Positions 5,576 to 41,906 of a stretch of 64,000 bases of DNA are shown one piece after another. The DNA lies in NCBI RefSeq assembly GCF_001428505.1, contig NZ_LMHU01000001.1, positions 1,014,891 to 1,078,890 of the forward strand, given 5' to 3'. The translations under genes and the position numbers were made by a program. Under the pieces are notes generated by a model, which did no database searches, was not told the DNA's origin, and worked only from the letters and a program-made list of their open reading frames with translations. Numbering within the stretch: position 1 is the stretch's first letter; each line of letters starts with the position of its first letter. This stretch comes from Terrabacter sp. Root181 (GTDB taxonomy: Bacteria > Actinomycetota > Actinomycetes > Actinomycetales > Dermatophilaceae).

Positions 5576-5801
5576 GGCTTCATTGCCTTCCTTCACCGGC
5601 AGGAACGTGCCGGACGATCCGTTGTAAAGGGTGTGCCTGCCCGGGTGAGCAGGCATCGACATCATGTCCCACTCCGGGCACGTTGACCACCCCTCGCCCA
5701 CGGGAGGGCCGCCGCGGGCACGGGTCGGGGACGTGTAGGCCCCGGCGGGGACCCCGGCGACCGGTCCCCGCTGGGTCCGATCAGGGATGTGTCCGGAACG
5801 T

Positions 5802-18187: not shown

Positions 18188-19051
<864 letters not shown>

Positions 19052-33327: not shown

Positions 33328-34908
33328 ATGGGCGGCGTGAACCGATACCTGGCCGTGGCCCGGTCGACCCTGACGGGCCGGTGGGTCGGGCGTCGCTCGG
33401 CCTCCTCGCCACGGCTGCGCCCGCTCGACCTGTCGCCGTTCGAGGACGCGCTTCGCGACTTCGAGGACGACCGTGTCGAGCGCGTCGCCACGCTCGTGCG
33501 CGACGCGTCGATCGTCCAGCTGAGCCGCCTCATGGACTCGGGCCGCCTGACCTCGCAGGACCTCACTCTCCTGTGCCTCAGTCGGATTCGCGCACAGGAC
33601 GAGACCCTGAGGTCGCTGCTCGAGCTCAACCCGCACGCCCTCGTCGAGGCCGCATCGGCTGACGAGCGGCGCCGGGCGGGGGCGTCGCCGTCCCCGCTCT
33701 GCGGCATACCGCTGACCCTCAAGGACAACATCGAGACCGCGCCACCTCTGCACACCACCGCGGGCTCCGTGCTGCTCGCCGACCACCTGGCCGACCACGA
33801 CGCGCCGCTCGTGGCCCGGCTGCGCGATGCCGGCGCCGTCATCCTCGGGAAGGCCAACCTGTCCGAGCTCGCCGGCGCGATGTCGTCGCGGGCGGGGTTC
33901 AGCGCCGTCGGCGGTCAGGCGATGAATCCCTTTGGGGCGCAGTTCTCCCCAGGCGGGTCGAGCAGTGGTTCGGCGGTCGGGGTCGCGGCAGGGCTCTGCA
34001 TCGCGAGCATCGGCACCGAGACGTCCGGGTCGCTCCTCGCCCCGGTGGCCTTCAGCGGGGTCGTCGCGATGAAGCCGAGCCGCGGGGTCGTCCCCACCGA
34101 CGGCATCGTGCCGCTCGTGCACACTCAGGACTCGGCCGGGCCCGTCGCAAGGTCGGTCGCCGACGCGGCCGCCGTGCTCGAGGTCATCGCGAGGCACCCG
34201 GTGCGCACCGACCTCGCCGACGACGCGCTCGAAGGAGTGCGCGTCGGCGTCCTCCGAGCCGACGTGCTGTCGCAGCAGTCGCCCTTCGAGGACACCTCGG
34301 AGAACGCCGCGGTGCTCGGGCGCGTCGTCGAGGGCCTGACCCGCGCCGGGGCCGATGCGGCAGACGTCCTGCTCGGCCTGCGCGCCGACTCGCTGGACGA
34401 GTACGAGAAGGGATTCGTCGGGGTCGTGCTCGGTGGCCTGTGCCACGACACGCTGCCCTACCTCGCCGCGGCCACCGGGGCCCGCGGCGACGGTGTCCGC
34501 GTGACGACGGCTGCCGACCTCCTCGCGTGGAACCTCGCCGACCCCCGACGACGTATGCCGTCCGGCCAGGGCGTCCTGGACCTCGCCGTCCTGCGTGGCG
34601 CTGACGCCGACGCCTATGCCGAAGCCGCGCTCGGCTTCCGTGACCGCGCGGCCGCCCTCCTCGCCGAGACCTTCGACGGCACGCGCACCGAGCTGCTCGT
34701 GAGCCTCTCGAACCGGCACTCCTCCGTCTACGCGACCGCCGGCTTCCCGGCGGTCACCGTCCCGGCCGGCATGCGCAGCAACGGGATGCCGGTCGGCGCC
34801 ACGTTCATCGGTCGCCCCGGTGAGGACGGCCGACTGCTGTCGATGGCCCACGCGTTCGAGCGAGTCACGCGGCTGCGTCGTGAACCGATCGGGGCAGGTC
34901 GCGGCTAG
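33328..34908 (+). CDS. amidase signature family enzyme
   Basis: 526 aa. Amidase-signature hydrolase with Lys132 in LTLKDNIE, the Gly/Ser loop SPGGSSSGSA (208-216) and the nucleophile-bearing segment GTETSGSLLAP (229-239), giving the Ser-cisSer-Lys triad; here the usual Gly-Gly-Ser is Ser-Gly-Ser. An N-terminal extension of about 55 residues precedes the fold. Substrate unknown; it has no Gat neighbours and is not a tRNA amidotransferase subunit. No good SD at ATG 33328; GTG at 33337 is an alternative start. Confidence 0.85.
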   Translation: MGGVNRYLAVARSTLTGRWVGRRSASSPRLRPLDLSPFEDALRDFEDDRVERVATLVRDASIVQLSRLMDSGRLTSQDLTLLCLSRIRAQDETLRSLLELNPHALVEAASADERRRAGASPSPLCGIPLTLKDNIETAPPLHTTAGSVLLADHLADHDAPLVARLRDAGAVILGKANLSELAGAMSSRAGFSAVGGQAMNPFGAQFSPGGSSSGSAVGVAAGLCIASIGTETSGSLLAPVAFSGVVAMKPSRGVVPTDGIVPLVHTQDSAGPVARSVADAAAVLEVIARHPVRTDLADDALEGVRVGVLRADVLSQQSPFEDTSENAAVLGRVVEGLTRAGADAADVLLGLRADSLDEYEKGFVGVVLGGLCHDTLPYLAAATGARGDGVRVTTAADLLAWNLADPRRRMPSGQGVLDLAVLRGADADAYAEAALGFRDRAAALLAETFDGTRTELLVSLSNRHSSVYATAGFPAVTVPAGMRSNGMPVGATFIGRPGEDGRLLSMAHAFERVTRLRREPIGAGRG

Positions 34909-35020: not shown

Positions 35021-37633
35021 ATGGGCGGGTTCGAAGAGGCGGGCGTTCAGCCGGTCGAGGTCGTCCACGATCTCGCCGACCGACTTGCGACGACGCAGGA
35101 GCAGCTGCGTGCCACGAGCGACATCCTCAAGGTCCTCACCGCCTCGACGACCGGCGGCGCCGCCAGTCGCGACGAGGTCTTCGACGCCGTCGTCGACAGC
35201 GCACGGCGTCTCCTCGGGGCGCAGGTGGCCCAGATCTACCTCGTCCAGGGTGACTCCTACGTGCTCGCGCGTTCGAGCGGGCTGACGCCCGAGTTCGTCG
35301 ACTTCGTCTCGCAGCACCCGATCGCCCGCGACCGGGCGACGCTGGTCGGGCGCGTCACCATCGACCGGACCGTGCACCAGATCGACGACGTCCTCGCCGA
35401 CCCGGACTACCGCCGCACCGACTTCCAACGGGTCGGCGGCTACCGGACGATGATGGGCGCTCCGATGGTGGTCGGCGACCAGGTCGTCGGCGCCATCAAC
35501 GTCTGGCGCACCGAGGTCGCGCCCTTCGACGAGGCCGCTCAGGAGCTCCTGTCGACCTTCGCGGAGCAGGCAGCCCTCGCGCTCCGGCACGTCGAGCTCT
35601 TCTCCGCGCTCGAGAGCCGCTCGGCCGAGCTGGGCCGCAAGGTCGACCAGCTCGAGGCGCTCGCCGAGGTCGGCGAGGCGATCAGCTCGACGCTCGTCGC
35701 GGACGAGGTCCTGACCACGATCGTCACCCACGCCGTGGAGCTCTCGGACACCGACGGCGGGTCGCTCATGGAGTTCGACGAGGCGACCGGACTCTTCCGG
35801 GTGCGCACGGCCTACGGCACGAGCGCCGACGTCATCGACGCGCTGCGTGGCGCGGAGATCCACATCGACCGGACGTGGGTGGGCCGGGCGGCCAGCACCC
35901 GCGAGGTCCTCCAGATCCCCGATCTCGACGCCGAGCCCGGCCCGCTCGACCCCCACCTGGCCGTGCTGCACGGGTCGGGCTGGCGCTCGCTCGTCGCCAT
36001 CCCGCTCGTGCGTCCCGACCGGGTCGTCGGGGCACTCGTCGTGCGTCGCAAGTCGACCGGGTCGTTCAGCGACGAGACGTGCGACCTGCTCACCGCCTTC
36101 GCGAGCCAGTCGGCCGTCGCGCTCACCAACGCCCGTCTCTACCAGCAGCTCGAGCAGCAGAGCGTCGCCCTCGCCGAGGCCAGCCGCCACAAGTCGGAGT
36201 TCCTCGCGAGCATGTCGCACGAGCTGCGGACGCCCCTCAACGCCGTCATCGGCTTCTCCGAGGTGCTCCTGGAGCGGATGTTCGGCGACCTCAACGAACG
36301 GCAGGAGGACTACCTCGAGGACATCCACTCCGCCGGTCGCCACCTGCTCGCCCTGCTCGGCGACATCCTCGACCTGTCGAAGATCGAGGCCGGACGCATG
36401 GAGCTCGACCTCACGACCTTTCCCATCGACGACATCCTCGTCCAGGCGCTGTCGCTCGTGCGCGAGCGCGCCGCACTGCACGGCATACGGCTGACGCTGG
36501 AGGCGGCCGCCGGCCTCGGACTCGTCACGGCCGACGAGCTGCGGCTCAAGCAGGTGCTGCTCAACCTGCTGAGCAACGCGGTCAAGTTCACCCCGGACGG
36601 CGGCAGCATCGTCGTCCGGGCCTGGCGCGACGCGGAGGAGGTCGACGTCACGGTCACGGACACGGGCATCGGCATCGCGCCCGCGGACCAGGAGCGCATC
36701 TTCGACTCGTTCCAGCAGGGTGAGCGGTCGGCGTCGTCGAGCGAGGGCACGGGGCTCACCAGCACCCCGGGCGACGGGAGCACCTTCGGGATCTCGGTCC
36801 CGCAGCCCGACGCCGACCGTGCGGCGGGCGGCGAGGTGTGGATGGTCGACGACGGCTCCCTCACCGGCCCGACCGTCGTCGTCATCGAGGACGACCCCCG
36901 CTCGGCCGAGCTCGTCGAGCTGCACCTGCGCGCAGCCGGCCTCCGCGCCGTCGGTGCGTCCACGGGCGAGCAGGGACTCGACCTCGTCCGGGCCCAGGAC
37001 CCGGTCGCGGTCGTCCTCGACATCCACCTGCCCGGGATGGACGGGTGGGAGGTCCTGACGGCGCTCAAGAGCGACCCGACGACGGCTGACGTGCCCGTCG
37101 TCGTCGTCAGCGTCGAGCCGGAGCGAGGTCGTGGCTTCGCTCTCGGAGCGACGGAGTACCTCGTCAAGCCGGTGAGCGGCGAGCACCTCCTCGCGGCCGT
37201 GACCCGGTTGCTGCCACCGCCGCGCGCCGACGAGCAGACTCCCCGGCTCAGTGTCGTCGTCGTCGACGACGACCCCCTCGCCCTCAAGCTCGTGCGCAGC
37301 ACGCTCGAGCCGCTCGGCTGGGAGGTGCACACGTGCGCGGGCGGCCAGCAGGCGGCGGACCTCGTCCGTGCCGTCGCCCCGTCGGTCGTCGTCATCGACC
37401 TGCTCATGCCCCACGTCGACGGCTTCGCCGTCATCGACGAGCTGCGGCCGCACCGCGACTCCGACGGGCCCCCCATCGTCGTCCTGACCGCGAAGTCCCT
37501 GACGCCGCAAGACCGCTCACGCCTCGAGGGGCGCATCGCGTTCGTCGCGGAGAAGGCCGGCATCGACCTCCCGGGTCTCGCGCGCCGCCTGGCGACCGTC
37601 GCGGCGGAGCACACGGGGGAGGGGCAGCCGTGA
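35021..37633 (+). CDS. GAF-GAF hybrid histidine kinase with two receivers
   Basis: 870 aa, soluble, from ATG 35021. Order: N-terminal coil, GAF 1 (about 35-195), GAF 2 (215-375), HisKA with His400 in SMSHELRTPLNAV, HATPase_c (N box LLNLLSNAVKFTPDGG, G1 box DTGIGIA), receiver 1 (Asp667 in LDIHLPGMDG) and receiver 2 (Asp793 in IDLLMPHVDG). After GTGL at 36746-36757 the sequence jumps straight to TSTPGDGSTF; the usual helix after the G2 box (GLGLAL...VELHGG) is missing, an apparent in-frame loss of about 20 residues that should impair ATP binding. It overlaps the next gene by 4 bases. No DNA-binding output domain. Confidence 0.9.
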   Translation: MGGFEEAGVQPVEVVHDLADRLATTQEQLRATSDILKVLTASTTGGAASRDEVFDAVVDSARRLLGAQVAQIYLVQGDSYVLARSSGLTPEFVDFVSQHPIARDRATLVGRVTIDRTVHQIDDVLADPDYRRTDFQRVGGYRTMMGAPMVVGDQVVGAINVWRTEVAPFDEAAQELLSTFAEQAALALRHVELFSALESRSAELGRKVDQLEALAEVGEAISSTLVADEVLTTIVTHAVELSDTDGGSLMEFDEATGLFRVRTAYGTSADVIDALRGAEIHIDRTWVGRAASTREVLQIPDLDAEPGPLDPHLAVLHGSGWRSLVAIPLVRPDRVVGALVVRRKSTGSFSDETCDLLTAFASQSAVALTNARLYQQLEQQSVALAEASRHKSEFLASMSHELRTPLNAVIGFSEVLLERMFGDLNERQEDYLEDIHSAGRHLLALLGDILDLSKIEAGRMELDLTTFPIDDILVQALSLVRERAALHGIRLTLEAAAGLGLVTADELRLKQVLLNLLSNAVKFTPDGGSIVVRAWRDAEEVDVTVTDTGIGIAPADQERIFDSFQQGERSASSSEGTGLTSTPGDGSTFGISVPQPDADRAAGGEVWMVDDGSLTGPTVVVIEDDPRSAELVELHLRAAGLRAVGASTGEQGLDLVRAQDPVAVVLDIHLPGMDGWEVLTALKSDPTTADVPVVVVSVEPERGRGFALGATEYLVKPVSGEHLLAAVTRLLPPPRADEQTPRLSVVVVDDDPLALKLVRSTLEPLGWEVHTCAGGQQAADLVRAVAPSVVVIDLLMPHVDGFAVIDELRPHRDSDGPPIVVLTAKSLTPQDRSRLEGRIAFVAEKAGIDLPGLARRLATVAAEHTGEGQP

Positions 37634-38022
37634 GCGACCTCCCCGTCGTGCTCCTCGTCGAGGACAACCCCCGCAACCTCAAGCTGGCGCGGGACGTGCT
37701 GGAGTATGCCGGCTTCTGCGTCGTCGTCGCGACCACCGGTGAGGAGGCGGTCGAGCAGGCGAGGGCGACCCTGCCCGACGTCATCCTCATGGACCTCCAG
37801 CTCCCCGGGATCGACGGCTTCGCCGCTCTCGAGCTGATCCGTGACCACGAGCCGACGGCCCACATCCCGATCGTCGCGCTGACGGCGTTCGCCATGCACC
37901 GCGACCGCGAGCGGGCTCTCGGCTCGGGCTTCGCGGGCTACCTCGAGAAGCCGATCAGCGTCCGTGAGTTCCCGGCCCAGGTGCGCCGCCACCTGCCCCG
38001 ACGAGACGCGCCGAGCCCATGA
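37630..38022 (+). CDS. single-domain response regulator
   Basis: 130 aa, GTG overlapping the kinase stop (GTGA). One receiver domain: acidic pair VEDN near residue 10, phospho-acceptor Asp55 in LMDLQLPGIDG, switch Thr in ALTAF, Lys in EKPIS. The EDNPRNLKLARDVLEYAG start resembles DivK/CheY-like receivers working in phosphorelays. With no output domain it probably shuttles phosphate between the hybrid kinase and the receiver-cyclase. Confidence 0.92.
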   Translation: MSDLPVVLLVEDNPRNLKLARDVLEYAGFCVVVATTGEEAVEQARATLPDVILMDLQLPGIDGFAALELIRDHEPTAHIPIVALTAFAMHRDRERALGSGFAGYLEKPISVREFPAQVRRHLPRRDAPSP

Positions 38023-39176
38023 TGCCGGTCCCTGCAGCCACGGTCCCCTCGCTCGCCGGCGTGCGGGTCCTCGTCGTCGACGACCTCGAGCAGAACCGCA
38101 AGCTCATGCACGCCGTCCTCGAGCCGCGGGGGTTCCTCGTGCGCTCTGAGGCGTCGGGCGCCGCCGCGCTCGAGGCGCTCGCCGAGTGCGAGATCGACGT
38201 CGTCCTGCTCGACGTGCTGATGCCCGTCATGGACGGCTACGAGACGTGCGAGCGCATCAAGGCCGACCCTCGCACCGCGATGCTGCCCGTCGTCATGGTC
38301 ACGGCCAGCGGGACCCAGCAGCGGCTGCGGGCCCTCGAGGCGGGGGCCGACGACTTCATCACCAAGCCGTTCGACCAGGCCGAGCTGATGGCTCGTGTCC
38401 GGTCCCTGGCGCGGGTCAAGCGGCTGCACGACACGGTGCTCGAGCAGACCGTCGCGCTGGAGCGCTGGAACGCCGAGCTCGAGAGCCGGGTCGCCGAGCA
38501 GGTCGACGACCTCGACCGGCTGGGCCGCCTGCGCCGCTTCCTGTCGCCCCAGATCGCGGGACTCATCGTCGAGTCCGGTGACGAGTCCTTCCTCGAGAGC
38601 CACCGACGCGACATCACGACCGTCTTCACCGACCTCCGCGGCTTCACCGCGTTCGCCGAGACCGCCGAGCCCGAGGAGACCATGTCGGTGCTGCGCGACT
38701 ACCACGGCGCCCTCGGGGAGCTCGTCTTCGCGTACGAGGGCACGCTGGAGCACTTCGCCGGCGACGGGCTCATGGTGTTCTTCAACGACCCGCCGCCGTG
38801 TCCCGACGCGCCCGAGCGGGCGGTGCGGATGGCGCTCGACATGCGTGACCGCGTCGACGAGCTCGCCTCCCGGTGGTCCCGGCAGGGGCACGACCTCGGC
38901 TTCGGGATCGGCATCGCGCAGGGCTACGCGACGCTGGGCCGCGTCGGCTTCGAGGGCCGCTGGGACTACGCGGCGATCGGGACCGTCACCAACGTCGCGG
39001 CGCGCCTGTGCGCCACCGCGGCAGCCCGGCAGATCCTCATCAGCCCCCGCGTGCGCGCCGGCCTCGACGAGCGCTTCGAGACGCGCTCGCTCGGGCCGGT
39101 GGAGCTGCGCGGCATCTCGCGGCCCCTCGAGGTCCACGAGGTCATCGGCACCACCGACCGGGAGGACGACCCATGA
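38019..39176 (+). CDS. receiver-class III adenylate/guanylate cyclase
   Basis: 385 aa, ATG overlapping the previous stop by 4 bases. Receiver (14-130) with Asp65 in LLDVLMPVMDG; coiled-coil linker (about 136-172); class III cyclase domain (195-370). Metal-binding Asp205 (VFTDLRGF) and Asp249 (AGDGLMVF) and transition-state Asn325 and Arg329 (TNVAARL) are all present, so it should be active. After AIG the sequence reads TVTNVAARL where many cyclases have DTVN, so base choice (ATP or GTP) cannot be settled. Phosphorylation-controlled cyclic nucleotide production is the expected output of the cassette. Confidence 0.92.
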   Translation: MMPVPAATVPSLAGVRVLVVDDLEQNRKLMHAVLEPRGFLVRSEASGAAALEALAECEIDVVLLDVLMPVMDGYETCERIKADPRTAMLPVVMVTASGTQQRLRALEAGADDFITKPFDQAELMARVRSLARVKRLHDTVLEQTVALERWNAELESRVAEQVDDLDRLGRLRRFLSPQIAGLIVESGDESFLESHRRDITTVFTDLRGFTAFAETAEPEETMSVLRDYHGALGELVFAYEGTLEHFAGDGLMVFFNDPPPCPDAPERAVRMALDMRDRVDELASRWSRQGHDLGFGIGIAQGYATLGRVGFEGRWDYAAIGTVTNVAARLCATAAARQILISPRVRAGLDERFETRSLGPVELRGISRPLEVHEVIGTTDREDDP

Positions 39177-40837
39177 ACCCGACGACCCCGACCCCGACCC
39201 CGGCCCCGGCCGACCCGACGACGCCAGCGCCGACGGCTGCCGGAGGTGGCCTCGACGACCTCGACGAGGCGGCCCGCGGCCGACTGTTCGACGACCTGCA
39301 GCAGGTCCTGCCCGAGGTCTGGCGCAGCTTTGGTCAAGGCGACCCCCGGGAGTCGGTGGTCGTCGTGCCGTCGATGAGCGTCGACCACCTCGCGCCGTCG
39401 GCGGGCGCCATGAACCAGGCGATGGAGGAGCGTTTCCTCTTCCTGCTGCTGCTGCTGCGCCAGCCATGCCTCCGGATGGTCTACGTGACGTCGATGCCGA
39501 TCAGCGAGCACATCATCGAGTACTACCTGTCGCTGCTGCCCGGCGTCATCCCGAGCCATGCCCGGGCCCGCCTCGACCTGGTCTCGGTGGGTGACTCCTC
39601 CCCGAGACCCCTGACCGACAAGCTCTTGGCCCGCCCGCGGGTTCTCTCCCGCATCGCCTCCCTCGTACCGGACCCCGCGCGGTCGCACCTCATCCCCTAC
39701 ACGAGCACGACGCGCGAGCGTGACCTGGCGCTGATGCTCGGCATCCCCATGTATGCCGCCGACCCGCGCCTCTACCCGCTGGGCACCAAGACCGGCTGCC
39801 GCAGGGTCTTCGCCGAGGCCGGCGTCGACCATCCCTTCGGCGCCGAGGACGTCCACTCGGTCGACGACGTCGTCGACGCCGTGCTCGAGCTACACGCGTC
39901 GCGGCCCGACGCGCAGTGGGCCATGGTCAAGCTCGACGAGGGTGTCTCGGGCTCGGGCAACGCCCTCGTCGACCTGACCGACGTGGACGCCGCGGCGGCG
40001 GATCCGGGCGACGAGGGAGGCTCGCTGCGTGCGGTCGTCACCGACCGGGTGCTGGGGATGCAGCTCGAGGACGAACGCATCGAGACCGGGGCCTACCTCG
40101 GGCGGCTGGACGAGCGCGGTGGCATCGTCGAGGAGCGCATCGTCGGTGACGAGGTGCGCAGCCCTAGCGTGCAGCTGCGCGTGACCCCGCTCGGGAAGCT
40201 CGAGATCCTCTCGACCCACGACCAGGTGCTCGGAGGCCCGACGGGGCAGATGTACCTCGGCGCGCGGTTCCCGGCCGACCCGGCCTACGCGACGACGATC
40301 ACCCGCGAGGCGGAGAAGGTCGGTCGCGTCCTCGCCGACAAGGGGGTGCTCGGCCGCTTCGCCCTCGACTTCGTCGTGGTCCGCCACGGGGAGCGCTGGC
40401 AGACCCACGCCATCGAGATCAACCTGCGCAGGGGCGGCACGACGCACCCGTTCCTCACGCTGCAGTTCCTGACCGACGGCACCTACGTCCACGAGGAGGG
40501 CCGCTTCGTCACCCCGTCCGGCGCCGAGCGCCATCTCGTGGCGACCGACCACCTCCAGGACACGTCTCTCCGGGGCCTGGGTGTCGACGACCTCTTCGAC
40601 CTCGTGGCCCGGGCGGGGCTCCACTTCGACCAGTCCCGCCAGGCGGGCGTCGTCTTCCACATGATCAGCTCGATCACCGAGTGCGGTCGCGTGGGCATGA
40701 CGGCCATCGGGGACACGCCAGACTCCGCCCAGGATGTGTTCGACCGGGCGGAGTCGGCGTTGCTCACCGAGGCGCGGGCGTCCCTCGTGCCGCTCCCCGT
40801 GCCCCATCGGGGGCGCCTCGGAGAGGGTCTTCGGTGA
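39173..40837 (+). CDS. PGM1-related ATP-grasp ligase-like protein
   Basis: 554 aa, ATG overlapping the cyclase stop (ATGA), GGAGG 8 bases upstream. Pro/Thr-rich start (2-22), a 170-residue N-terminal domain (LRMVYVTSMPISEHIIEYYL), then an ATP-grasp core: WAMVKLDEGVSGSGNALVDL carries the ATP-binding Lys and Gly-rich loop, and HAIEINLRRGGTTHPF the Mg-binding Glu/Asn. It resembles the actinobacterial family related to PGM1, the pheganomycin peptide ligase, so carboxylate-amine ligation is predicted. No biosynthetic neighbours; its place as last gene of a signalling operon is unusual. Substrate unknown. Confidence 0.82.
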   Translation: MNPTTPTPTPAPADPTTPAPTAAGGGLDDLDEAARGRLFDDLQQVLPEVWRSFGQGDPRESVVVVPSMSVDHLAPSAGAMNQAMEERFLFLLLLLRQPCLRMVYVTSMPISEHIIEYYLSLLPGVIPSHARARLDLVSVGDSSPRPLTDKLLARPRVLSRIASLVPDPARSHLIPYTSTTRERDLALMLGIPMYAADPRLYPLGTKTGCRRVFAEAGVDHPFGAEDVHSVDDVVDAVLELHASRPDAQWAMVKLDEGVSGSGNALVDLTDVDAAAADPGDEGGSLRAVVTDRVLGMQLEDERIETGAYLGRLDERGGIVEERIVGDEVRSPSVQLRVTPLGKLEILSTHDQVLGGPTGQMYLGARFPADPAYATTITREAEKVGRVLADKGVLGRFALDFVVVRHGERWQTHAIEINLRRGGTTHPFLTLQFLTDGTYVHEEGRFVTPSGAERHLVATDHLQDTSLRGLGVDDLFDLVARAGLHFDQSRQAGVVFHMISSITECGRVGMTAIGDTPDSAQDVFDRAESALLTEARASLVPLPVPHRGRLGEGLR

Positions 40838-40841
40838 CCGC

Positions 40842-41039
40842 TCAGGGGGCGATCGAGGCGGAGTGGATGAGGGCGCCGACGAAGGCCTGGTGCCACGTCA
40901 GGCGGGCCACGACGGACCGGGCCGATGCACCGCCGCAGTCGCACTCCCACGTCCAGCCGCCACGGGACAGGCGCGTCACTCGGGGGTGGTGGTGCGCCAG
41001 GTCCGGGTGGACTCGTCGTCGTGTCGTCGTCGTGGTCAT
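40842..41039 (-). CDS. small conserved-looking CxC protein, unknown
   Basis: 65 aa from ATG 41039 with GGGAAGG upstream. Thr/Arg-rich start, then VTRLSRGGWTWECDCGG with a Cys-x-Cys pair and a C-terminal helix (WHQAFVGALIHSASIAP). Convergent with the ATP-grasp gene, 4 bases apart. The isolated CDCGG could bind metal only as part of a larger site. Function unknown. Confidence 0.6.
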   Translation of the reverse strand: MTTTTTRRRVHPDLAHHHPRVTRLSRGGWTWECDCGGASARSVVARLTWHQAFVGALIHSASIAP

Positions 41040-41213
41040 CGAAGTGCCTTCCCTCAGTGAGGGGTTCGCCGCCCCTCGTTCCGCGGATGTCGTCGTGCGG
41101 TCACGTCCTGATGTCGCCACTCATGACGGTCCCGCTGATGCGCGCAGGTGTCTGTGCGCGTGGCGACACCCCGGGCGTGCTCGTCGGCACCCAGTCGCCG
41201 CGAGGGTGCTGCC

Positions 41214-41906
41214 GTGATGCTCGAGCTCGGGCTGTTGTCCGACCTCGCACCGAGCGAGCGCCGGGAGGTCGTCGCGACGATGCACCGGCACACGTACGCC
41301 ACGGGCGAGGTGGTCTTCCACGAGGGGGACACCGCGGACTCCGTGCACTTCGTCGTCGAGGGGCGTGTCGTCGCCCGCCGGTCGTCGGAGCAGGGTGACC
41401 GTTTGGCGTATTCCGTCATGGGTCCGGGTCAGGCCTTCGGGGAGCTCGCGATGATCGTGCGCGCCGGGCGACGCACGGCGACGATCGAGGCCGTGGAGCC
41501 GACCGTGACCCTGGCCCTGGCCTTCGCGGACTTCGAGCGGTTGTGTGCCAAGCACCCGGAGGTCAGTCGGCTGCTCGTGCGGCTGCTCGCGGCCCGGGTG
41601 AACTGCCTCACCGAGGCGCTCATGGAGGCCCTGCACACGCCAGCCGAGCTCCGAGTCGTGCGCAGTCTCGTGTCCCTGTGCGGGGTGTATGCCGTTGGCG
41701 CGCAGTCACGCTCACCGGTGACAGTGCAGCTGAACCAGTCCGAGCTCGCCGAGCTCGCCGGCGTCACCAGGCCGACGGCCAACCGCGTCCTGCGCCGCCT
41801 CGAGTCGGGTGGTGTCGTCGCGCTCGACCGTGGGCGCGTGACGGTCGTGGACCCCGGGGCCCTGCGCCGGACAGCGACCGTCACCCACCCACTCGGGCAC
41901 GCCTGA
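41214..41906 (+). CDS. Crp/Fnr family transcription regulator
   Basis: 230 aa from GTG 41214 (GAGGG 7 bases upstream; ATG follows as next codon). N-terminal cyclic-nucleotide-binding beta-barrel with the phosphate-cassette-like segment FGELAMIVRAGRRTATI, keeping the Glu and Arg that contact cyclic nucleotide in CRP; dimer helix; C-terminal winged helix-turn-helix (LNQSELAELAGVTRPTANRVLRRL). No Fnr-type Cys cluster. The receiver-cyclase about 2 kb upstream makes cAMP (or cGMP) response plausible. Divergent from the small CxC gene. Confidence 0.87.
   Translation: MMLELGLLSDLAPSERREVVATMHRHTYATGEVVFHEGDTADSVHFVVEGRVVARRSSEQGDRLAYSVMGPGQAFGELAMIVRAGRRTATIEAVEPTVTLALAFADFERLCAKHPEVSRLLVRLLAARVNCLTEALMEALHTPAELRVVRSLVSLCGVYAVGAQSRSPVTVQLNQSELAELAGVTRPTANRVLRRLESGGVVALDRGRVTVVDPGALRRTATVTHPLGHA

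Follow-up and report, generated by a model that had tools for sequence, protein, structure and literature searches.

A conserved actinobacterial gene cassette combines a hybrid histidine kinase, a receiver and a class III nucleotide cyclase with a BesA/PGM1-type ATP-grasp ligase

Like some other soil actinobacteria, Terrabacter sp. Root181 carries a cassette of four same-strand genes for a GAF-domain hybrid histidine kinase, a lone receiver, a receiver–class III nucleotide cyclase and an ATP-grasp ligase of the PGM1/BesA type. The cyclase–ligase link, judged from the ligase tree, probably arose once and was then retained in at least seven families. At somewhat less than even confidence, we propose that the cassette is a cytosolic two-component and cyclic-nucleotide switch with a dedicated ligase effector, whose output would be a controlled, reversible gamma-glutamylation.

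Layout and conservation of the cassette

The stretch of DNA that was analysed, 64,000 nucleotides long and hereafter called the window, contains the cassette at positions 35021-40837 of the forward strand (Table 1). Each of the three junctions is a 4-nt overlap, GTGA, ATGA and ATGA in gene order, with gene starts taken from our own gene caller. By Pfam, gene 1 has two GAF domains, HisKA, HATPase_c and a pair of Response_reg stretches, gene 2 has Response_reg, gene 3 Response_reg with Guanylate_cyc, and gene 4 ATP-grasp_IQCH with PGM1_C. Both the gene identities and the 4-base overlaps given in an initial annotation of this DNA are thereby borne out, the coordinates and overlaps exactly, and the ligase has no biosynthetic neighbours in the window, as that annotation had stated. 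It had also known of no described system joining these parts, and we found no paper on a kinase/receiver/cyclase/ligase combination in the open literature, subscription papers being mostly outside the search. Since the gene list of the window contains ten 4-nt overlaps, coupling by itself is unremarkable and the overlap was rejected as a sign of something special; what is notable is the conservation of the gene set.

Table 1. Features of the cassette and the adjoining regulator gene in the window
Feature	Position	Strand	Remarks
Hybrid histidine kinase, GAF-GAF-HisKA-HATPase, two C-terminal receivers	35021..37633	+	870 aa
In-frame loss of 18 residues, ATP-binding (G2 box) region of the kinase	36740..36772	+	from alignment
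Lone receiver (response regulator)	37630..38022	+	130 aa; GTG start overlaps kinase stop
Receiver and class III nucleotide cyclase	38019..39176	+	385 aa
PGM1/BesA-type ATP-grasp amide (peptide) ligase	39173..40837	+	554 aa
CRP/FNR regulator	41217..41906	+	379 nt downstream of the ligase, not translationally coupled; start chosen by gene caller

An amidase gene just 5' of the kinase (33328-34908) is perhaps a strain-specific insertion; it was rejected as a part of the operon, as the other Terrabacter loci list no amidase before the kinase. A reverse-strand ORF (40842-41120) lies between the ligase and CRP genes, and L093 and L094 have reverse-strand ORFs (81 and 76 aa) in the corresponding position, the intergenic DNA being partly conserved. 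Two RNAs in the window, a c-di-AMP riboswitch (18217-18396) and an msiK RNA (5582-5641), were above the Rfam gathering scores.

Ligase relatives were scanned in named genomes (at least 583 stretches with at least 539 relatives) and the best 80 were kept, which favours close relatives; samples of the class and the phylum are less biased. The nearest named relatives, among the matches listed, were from Terracoccus sp. 273MFTsu3.1 and Terrabacter sp., and the ligase was present in all nine genus genomes examined. Of the best 80 of at least 539 relatives, 61 had the cyclase gene as immediate same-strand upstream neighbour, with a gap of −4 in 42, and 49 had the full four-gene order. All three junctions were 4-nt overlaps in 17 of these 49 loci, and eight further loci of the best 80 had the kinase followed by the cyclase with the lone receiver absent. 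At least 3.5 kb of upstream sequence was available for 70 of the 80 loci, and the cyclase was present in 58 of them; the remaining 12 belong to Verrucomicrobiota, Thermoflexales, Fraserbacteria, Acidimicrobiia and unplaced Actinomycetota assemblies. The gene order, whose conservation the initial annotation had proposed to examine, is therefore conserved among these close relatives. That annotation would have been refuted by an overlap unique to this strain together with unrelated contexts for most ATP-grasp homologues; the overlap is not unique to this strain, and more distant ligase homologues do sit in unrelated contexts.

The cassette is uncommon. In the class sample, 29 of 394 genomes contained the ligase and seven of these, the window included, the cassette. 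The cyclase was upstream in all seven genomes with a ligase match of at least 58% identity (window included) and was not upstream, where readable, in the other 22, whose matches were at most 50% identical. In the phylum sample, 51 of 396 genomes had a member of the ligase family.

A ligase tree was built by a quick method from 122 rows, 111 after duplicates were dropped, and was rooted at the midpoint. A branch marked 99 split 43 non-cassette ligases from 65 cassette ligases and two ligases on short contigs, and the cassette label changed four times on the tree compared with 35.6 times in shuffles. One divergent non-cassette ligase on a very long branch (L077) joined the midpoint root on the cassette side, its placement being unsure. 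By tree labels, the cassette occurs in Intrasporangiaceae, Nocardioidaceae, Kribbellaceae, Microbacteriaceae, Cellulomonadaceae, Mycobacteriaceae, Propionibacteriaceae and possibly others. It is this grouping apart of the cassette ligases that makes a single origin of the link probable. Spread by phage was rejected, there being no relative in viral contigs, and so was spread by plasmid: the plasmid collection gave six records of at most 46% identity, of which one covered 91% of the query.

Ligases outside the cassette clade sit in other, lineage-specific contexts. Relatives of 54-58% identity from Verrucomicrobiota, Chloroflexota and other groups had no adjoining cyclase cassette. Genes of M20- and S11-peptidase type flanked the ligase in nine class-sample loci of one family (Pfam on L062), and what we take from sequence to be a helicase-like gene preceded it in seven Verrucomicrobiota loci. 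From 60 phylum matches 40 loci were fetched; the ligase was uncalled in 11, and neighbours were read in 29, one of which was a cassette. Neighbours common to three or four loci recurred in the phylum set within families only, and no non-cassette neighbour set spanned families as the cassette does. In L238 and L241, the ligase adjoins a reverse-strand cluster of genes presumably resembling transglutaminase, proteasome-type protease and alpha-E proteins.

Some single cases were also observed. A presumed class II glutamine-amidotransferase-like gene (GAT-II; L147, 11525-12316) begins 18 nt after a non-cassette ligase; it was rejected as a general partner, as it was seen at this one locus and is absent from the neighbours listed for the phylum set. 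A same-genus genome carries a second ligase, 41% identical (L046, 2880-5163); 10 nt behind it lies a gene that, by its sequence, resembles a glutathionyl-hydroquinone-reductase type protein. Of the 16 family f63 genomes listed, 12 (for example G504, G603 and G544) had a ligase match interrupted by an in-frame TAG or TAA, with two in-frame TAG in G751.

The signalling genes also occur without the ligase. Nine of 197 genomes gave a cyclase match of E 1e-60 or better; six (window included) had ligase-bearing cassettes, one entry of the tally (G144) joining the two contigs L050 and L204, and three (G078, G039, G079) had the signalling module alone. The ligase-free modules L201 and L203, to which L202 is similar, have the same order of hybrid kinase, receiver and receiver–class III cyclase as genes 1-3, and thus the signalling part can stand alone; compared with such plain modules, the cassette adds the ligase and often a gene of cyclotransferase fold. 

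A rival explanation is a ligase that is merely co-expressed with the signalling genes, in a shared stress regulon, and that makes an unrelated peptide or amide, neither acting on the switch nor answering to it once translated. In its favour, cassette-free ligases are found in the wider family, ligase-free modules exist, and a shared operon by itself gives co-regulation. We nevertheless regard this explanation as rather unlikely, because the cassette ligases form a single tree group with the cassette in every checkable member, across many families and mostly with 4-nt junctions.

Kinase, receivers and cyclase

The HATPase_c match of the window kinase covers only profile positions 2-75 of 111. 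Alignment with the kinases of 22 other loci that we selected located an in-frame loss in the ATP-binding region (Table 1): the 18-residue G2-box stretch was kept in all 22 and was missing in the window strain alone. The window kinase does not have the complete ATP-binding domain with G2 box that marks an active histidine kinase, and by its sequence it looks damaged. It could be that the cassette of this strain is decaying, the kinase first, and has no present function. However, no reading frame is interrupted, dN/dS against six relatives (0.11-0.26) shows purifying selection on each of the four genes, and the loss could be recent or an assembly fault, so that decay is quite improbable.

The initial annotation described the first three genes as a phosphorelay to a cyclic nucleotide output. 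A phosphorelay of the HK-REC-HPt-REC type requires an HPt step, yet a Pfam search of the four cassette proteins found no HPt domain in any of them. As worded, the phosphorelay is therefore unsupported, and the G2-box region missing from the window kinase also speaks against it.

The phospho-acceptor D55 of the lone receiver was present in 51 of 51 aligned receivers. All 66 aligned cyclase rows, among which one strain appears twice, had D205, D249, N325 and R329; we take them to be the two metal-binding Asp and the transition-state Asn and Arg, respectively, of a class III cyclase, and this class assignment is confirmed throughout the 66 rows. In known class III cyclases, Lys selects adenine and its partner residue is Thr or Asp. 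When these positions were mapped onto CyaC (1wc0), the Lys position was occupied by R in 45, H in 20 and Q in one of the 66 rows, and the second position by Ala in all 66. The Lys and Asp/Thr pair of cAMP-specific adenylate cyclases is thus absent from the cassette cyclases, and with both base-specifying positions changed, the residues do not point to a particular nucleotide.

A reader of this nucleotide may be encoded nearby. Of 65 named loci, namely those of the best 80 of at least 539 with the ligase in the first gene set, 18 had a same-strand CRP-type gene no more than three genes away from the ligase. The cyclic-nucleotide pocket motif GE(L/I/M)A...RRT was present in 15 of the 18 proteins and altered in three. 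For the CRP/FNR gene of the window, an earlier GTG at 41148 is available as start. No conserved CRP site was seen by eye in consensus sequences of the ligase–CRP gap or of the region 5' of the kinase (17 and 18 sequences).

The ligase and a fifth gene of predicted cyclotransferase fold

The ligase scored above the curated cut-offs of PF18105 (46.5 vs 22.5 bits) and PF24923 (76.9 vs 27), and its match to the Pre ATP-grasp N-terminal domain PF18604 reached 20.8 bits against a cut-off of 27.5. The predicted model had a pLDDT of 80 and, apart from weak N-terminal stretches at residues 1-24 and 69-86, aligned with BesA along 485 columns. BesA (8yi6), named an L-propargylglycine--L-glutamate ligase and hence by name joining two amino acids, was the top Foldseek match (E 2e-30), followed by Streptomyces ATP-grasp peptide ligases, and phmmer gave E 1e-31 against it. 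BesA belongs to a biosynthetic pathway with a gamma-glutamyl product. Although it is the best match in both sequence and fold over most of the ligase length, identity is 26%, the BesA equivalog test NF042917 failed far below its curated cut-off (123.9 vs 750 bits), and there are no pathway genes near the cassette.

PGM1 of pheganomycin biosynthesis is a second relative: the cassette ligase shares its fold and contains the PGM1_C domain above cut-off. We take PDB entries 3wvq, titled 'ATP grasp protein', and 8ynd, 'ATP-grasp peptide ligase from Streptomyces', to be PGM1. Identity to PGM1-type structures in the fold matches was 14-18%, and the cassette ligase differs from them in its signalling context.

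K206, K253, E320, D399, E415 and N417 were invariant in 13 of 13 ligase sequences; the lysines and acidic residues are presumably catalytic residues of ATP-grasp type. Together with the BesA/PGM1-type fold of the model, this conservation indicates that the ligase is probably an active amide-bond former, although not a BesA equivalog. Its place among signalling proteins could also suit a pseudo-enzyme, or a nucleotide or glutamate sensor acting through binding, but the invariant residues and the purifying selection on the gene make this very improbable.

It is also conceivable, as the initial annotation had offered as one alternative, that an active ligase modifies a protein, such as the receiver or cyclase of its own cassette, rather than a small molecule. 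The ligase is co-translated with both, and two papers (PMC8359417, PMC8939145) describe PGM1 as acting on a peptide N-terminus in a peptide-antibiotic context. On the other hand, ligases of 54-58% identity that lack the cassette suggest a reaction independent of those partners, and BesA, structurally the nearest, joins two amino acids. We consider a protein target unlikely and favour a small molecule as acceptor.

In 23 of the 61 cassettes among the best 80 of at least 539 relatives, the ligase is directly followed by a same-strand fifth gene encoding a protein of ~200 aa. This gene was found at none of the 17 cassette-free loci and at both loci on short contigs. The other 38 of the 61 cassettes, including every locus labelled Intrasporangiaceae, have no adjoining fifth gene, some contigs ending early. 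The window genome gave no significant match to the fifth-gene protein, and 59 of the 394 class genomes contained the family, in most cases with no cassette.

The AF2 model of the fifth-gene protein (pLDDT 94) had human GGCT as its top Foldseek match (E 1e-6, probability 1.00, TM 0.50-0.55), and all six matches with E under 0.001 were human GGCT, which points to a GGCT fold at 16-17% identity to 2rbh and 3cry. In a profile search, human GGCT was the sole match (E 0.009), with the YGSNL and WxGGIA stretches aligned and no stretch significant individually. A single-sequence search with one protein matched MaoC-domain proteins (E 0.003) and not GGCT, and Pfam gave no family in the two members tested. 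In an alignment covering 17 of the 29 loci with a fifth gene, E98 was invariant after an aligned AQ, the GGCT alignment ending one residue before it; E98 presumably sits at the place of the catalytic Glu that follows EQ in GGCT.

Mycobacterial cassettes and the proposed function

Among the best 80 of at least 539 relatives, 11 cassettes are from Mycobacteriaceae. Same-strand genes for PP2C, VWA and FHA proteins lie upstream in eight of them, immediately 5' of the kinase in seven. Genes for a PknG paralogue and for a solute-binding-type protein of family 3 lie upstream in seven of the 11; in six they precede the PP2C, VWA and FHA genes, and in L141 PknG lies directly before the kinase. Neighbours were identified by Pfam on L123 and L141 and by PDB for the L123 PknG, and at other loci by BLAST clustering. 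L133 is probably an eighth PknG-bearing cassette, since the second PknG match of its genome is just past the fetched stretch. Each of seven genomes searched had a stronger PknG match elsewhere and a weaker second one. The window genome had one PknG-family match, on another contig. A putative GlnX gene in the mycobacterial cassette is assigned by position, with no Pfam or NCBIfam match.

PMC6069109 reports that PknG, GlnH and GlnX together control glutamate metabolism as a response to amino acids. The mycobacterial cassette begins, like that PknG-GlnH-GlnX operon of Actinobacteria, with genes for a PknG paralogue and a solute-binding-type protein of family 3. It differs in that the cassette PknG is never the best PknG match of its genome (seven genomes searched) and in being joined to PP2C, VWA, FHA and the cyclase–ligase cassette.

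In the switch that we propose, the GAF kinase would sense an intracellular ligand and phosphorylate the receivers that it carries itself as well as the lone receiver and that of the cyclase. The cyclase product, a cyclic nucleotide, may be read by the downstream CRP/FNR protein in Intrasporangiaceae and some Nocardioides and thereby set transcription. The co-translated ligase, serving the same signal, would couple an amine to a carboxylate at the expense of ATP, the glutamate side chain being the most likely carboxylate. In cassettes with the fifth gene, its GGCT-fold product could re-cleave the gamma-glutamyl bond, releasing 5-oxoproline. As output, a small amine or amino acid would be gamma-glutamylated in a controlled and reversible way, in step with amino-acid or glutamate status.

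Gamma-glutamyl chemistry is proposed because of three separate and indirect hints, namely the kinship to BesA, the cyclotransferase fold and the PknG neighbourhood, which taken together suggest a regulated, reversible gamma-glutamylation. A more far-reaching form, which we hold to be doubtful, is a writer–eraser system in which two-component and PknG-type amino-acid sensing, via an unusual cyclic nucleotide, governs gamma-glutamyl ligase and cyclotransferase, the metabolite being a signal or nitrogen store with possible feedback on the GAF domains.

New here are the fifth gene with its predicted GGCT fold, the BesA-like structure predicted for the ligase, the mycobacterial PknG link and cyclases without the usual base-specifying residues. 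The initial annotation mentions neither the fifth gene of relatives nor the CRP/FNR gene nor the PknG link. The cassette brings out a subgroup of cyclases in which the residues at the base-specifying positions suggest neither cAMP nor cGMP as product. It links cyclic-nucleotide with two-component signalling and, in mycobacteria, with PknG-type amino-acid sensing as well. One clade of an uncharacterised ligase family is now tied to a defined regulatory input, and the chemistry that we suggest for it is a testable guess.
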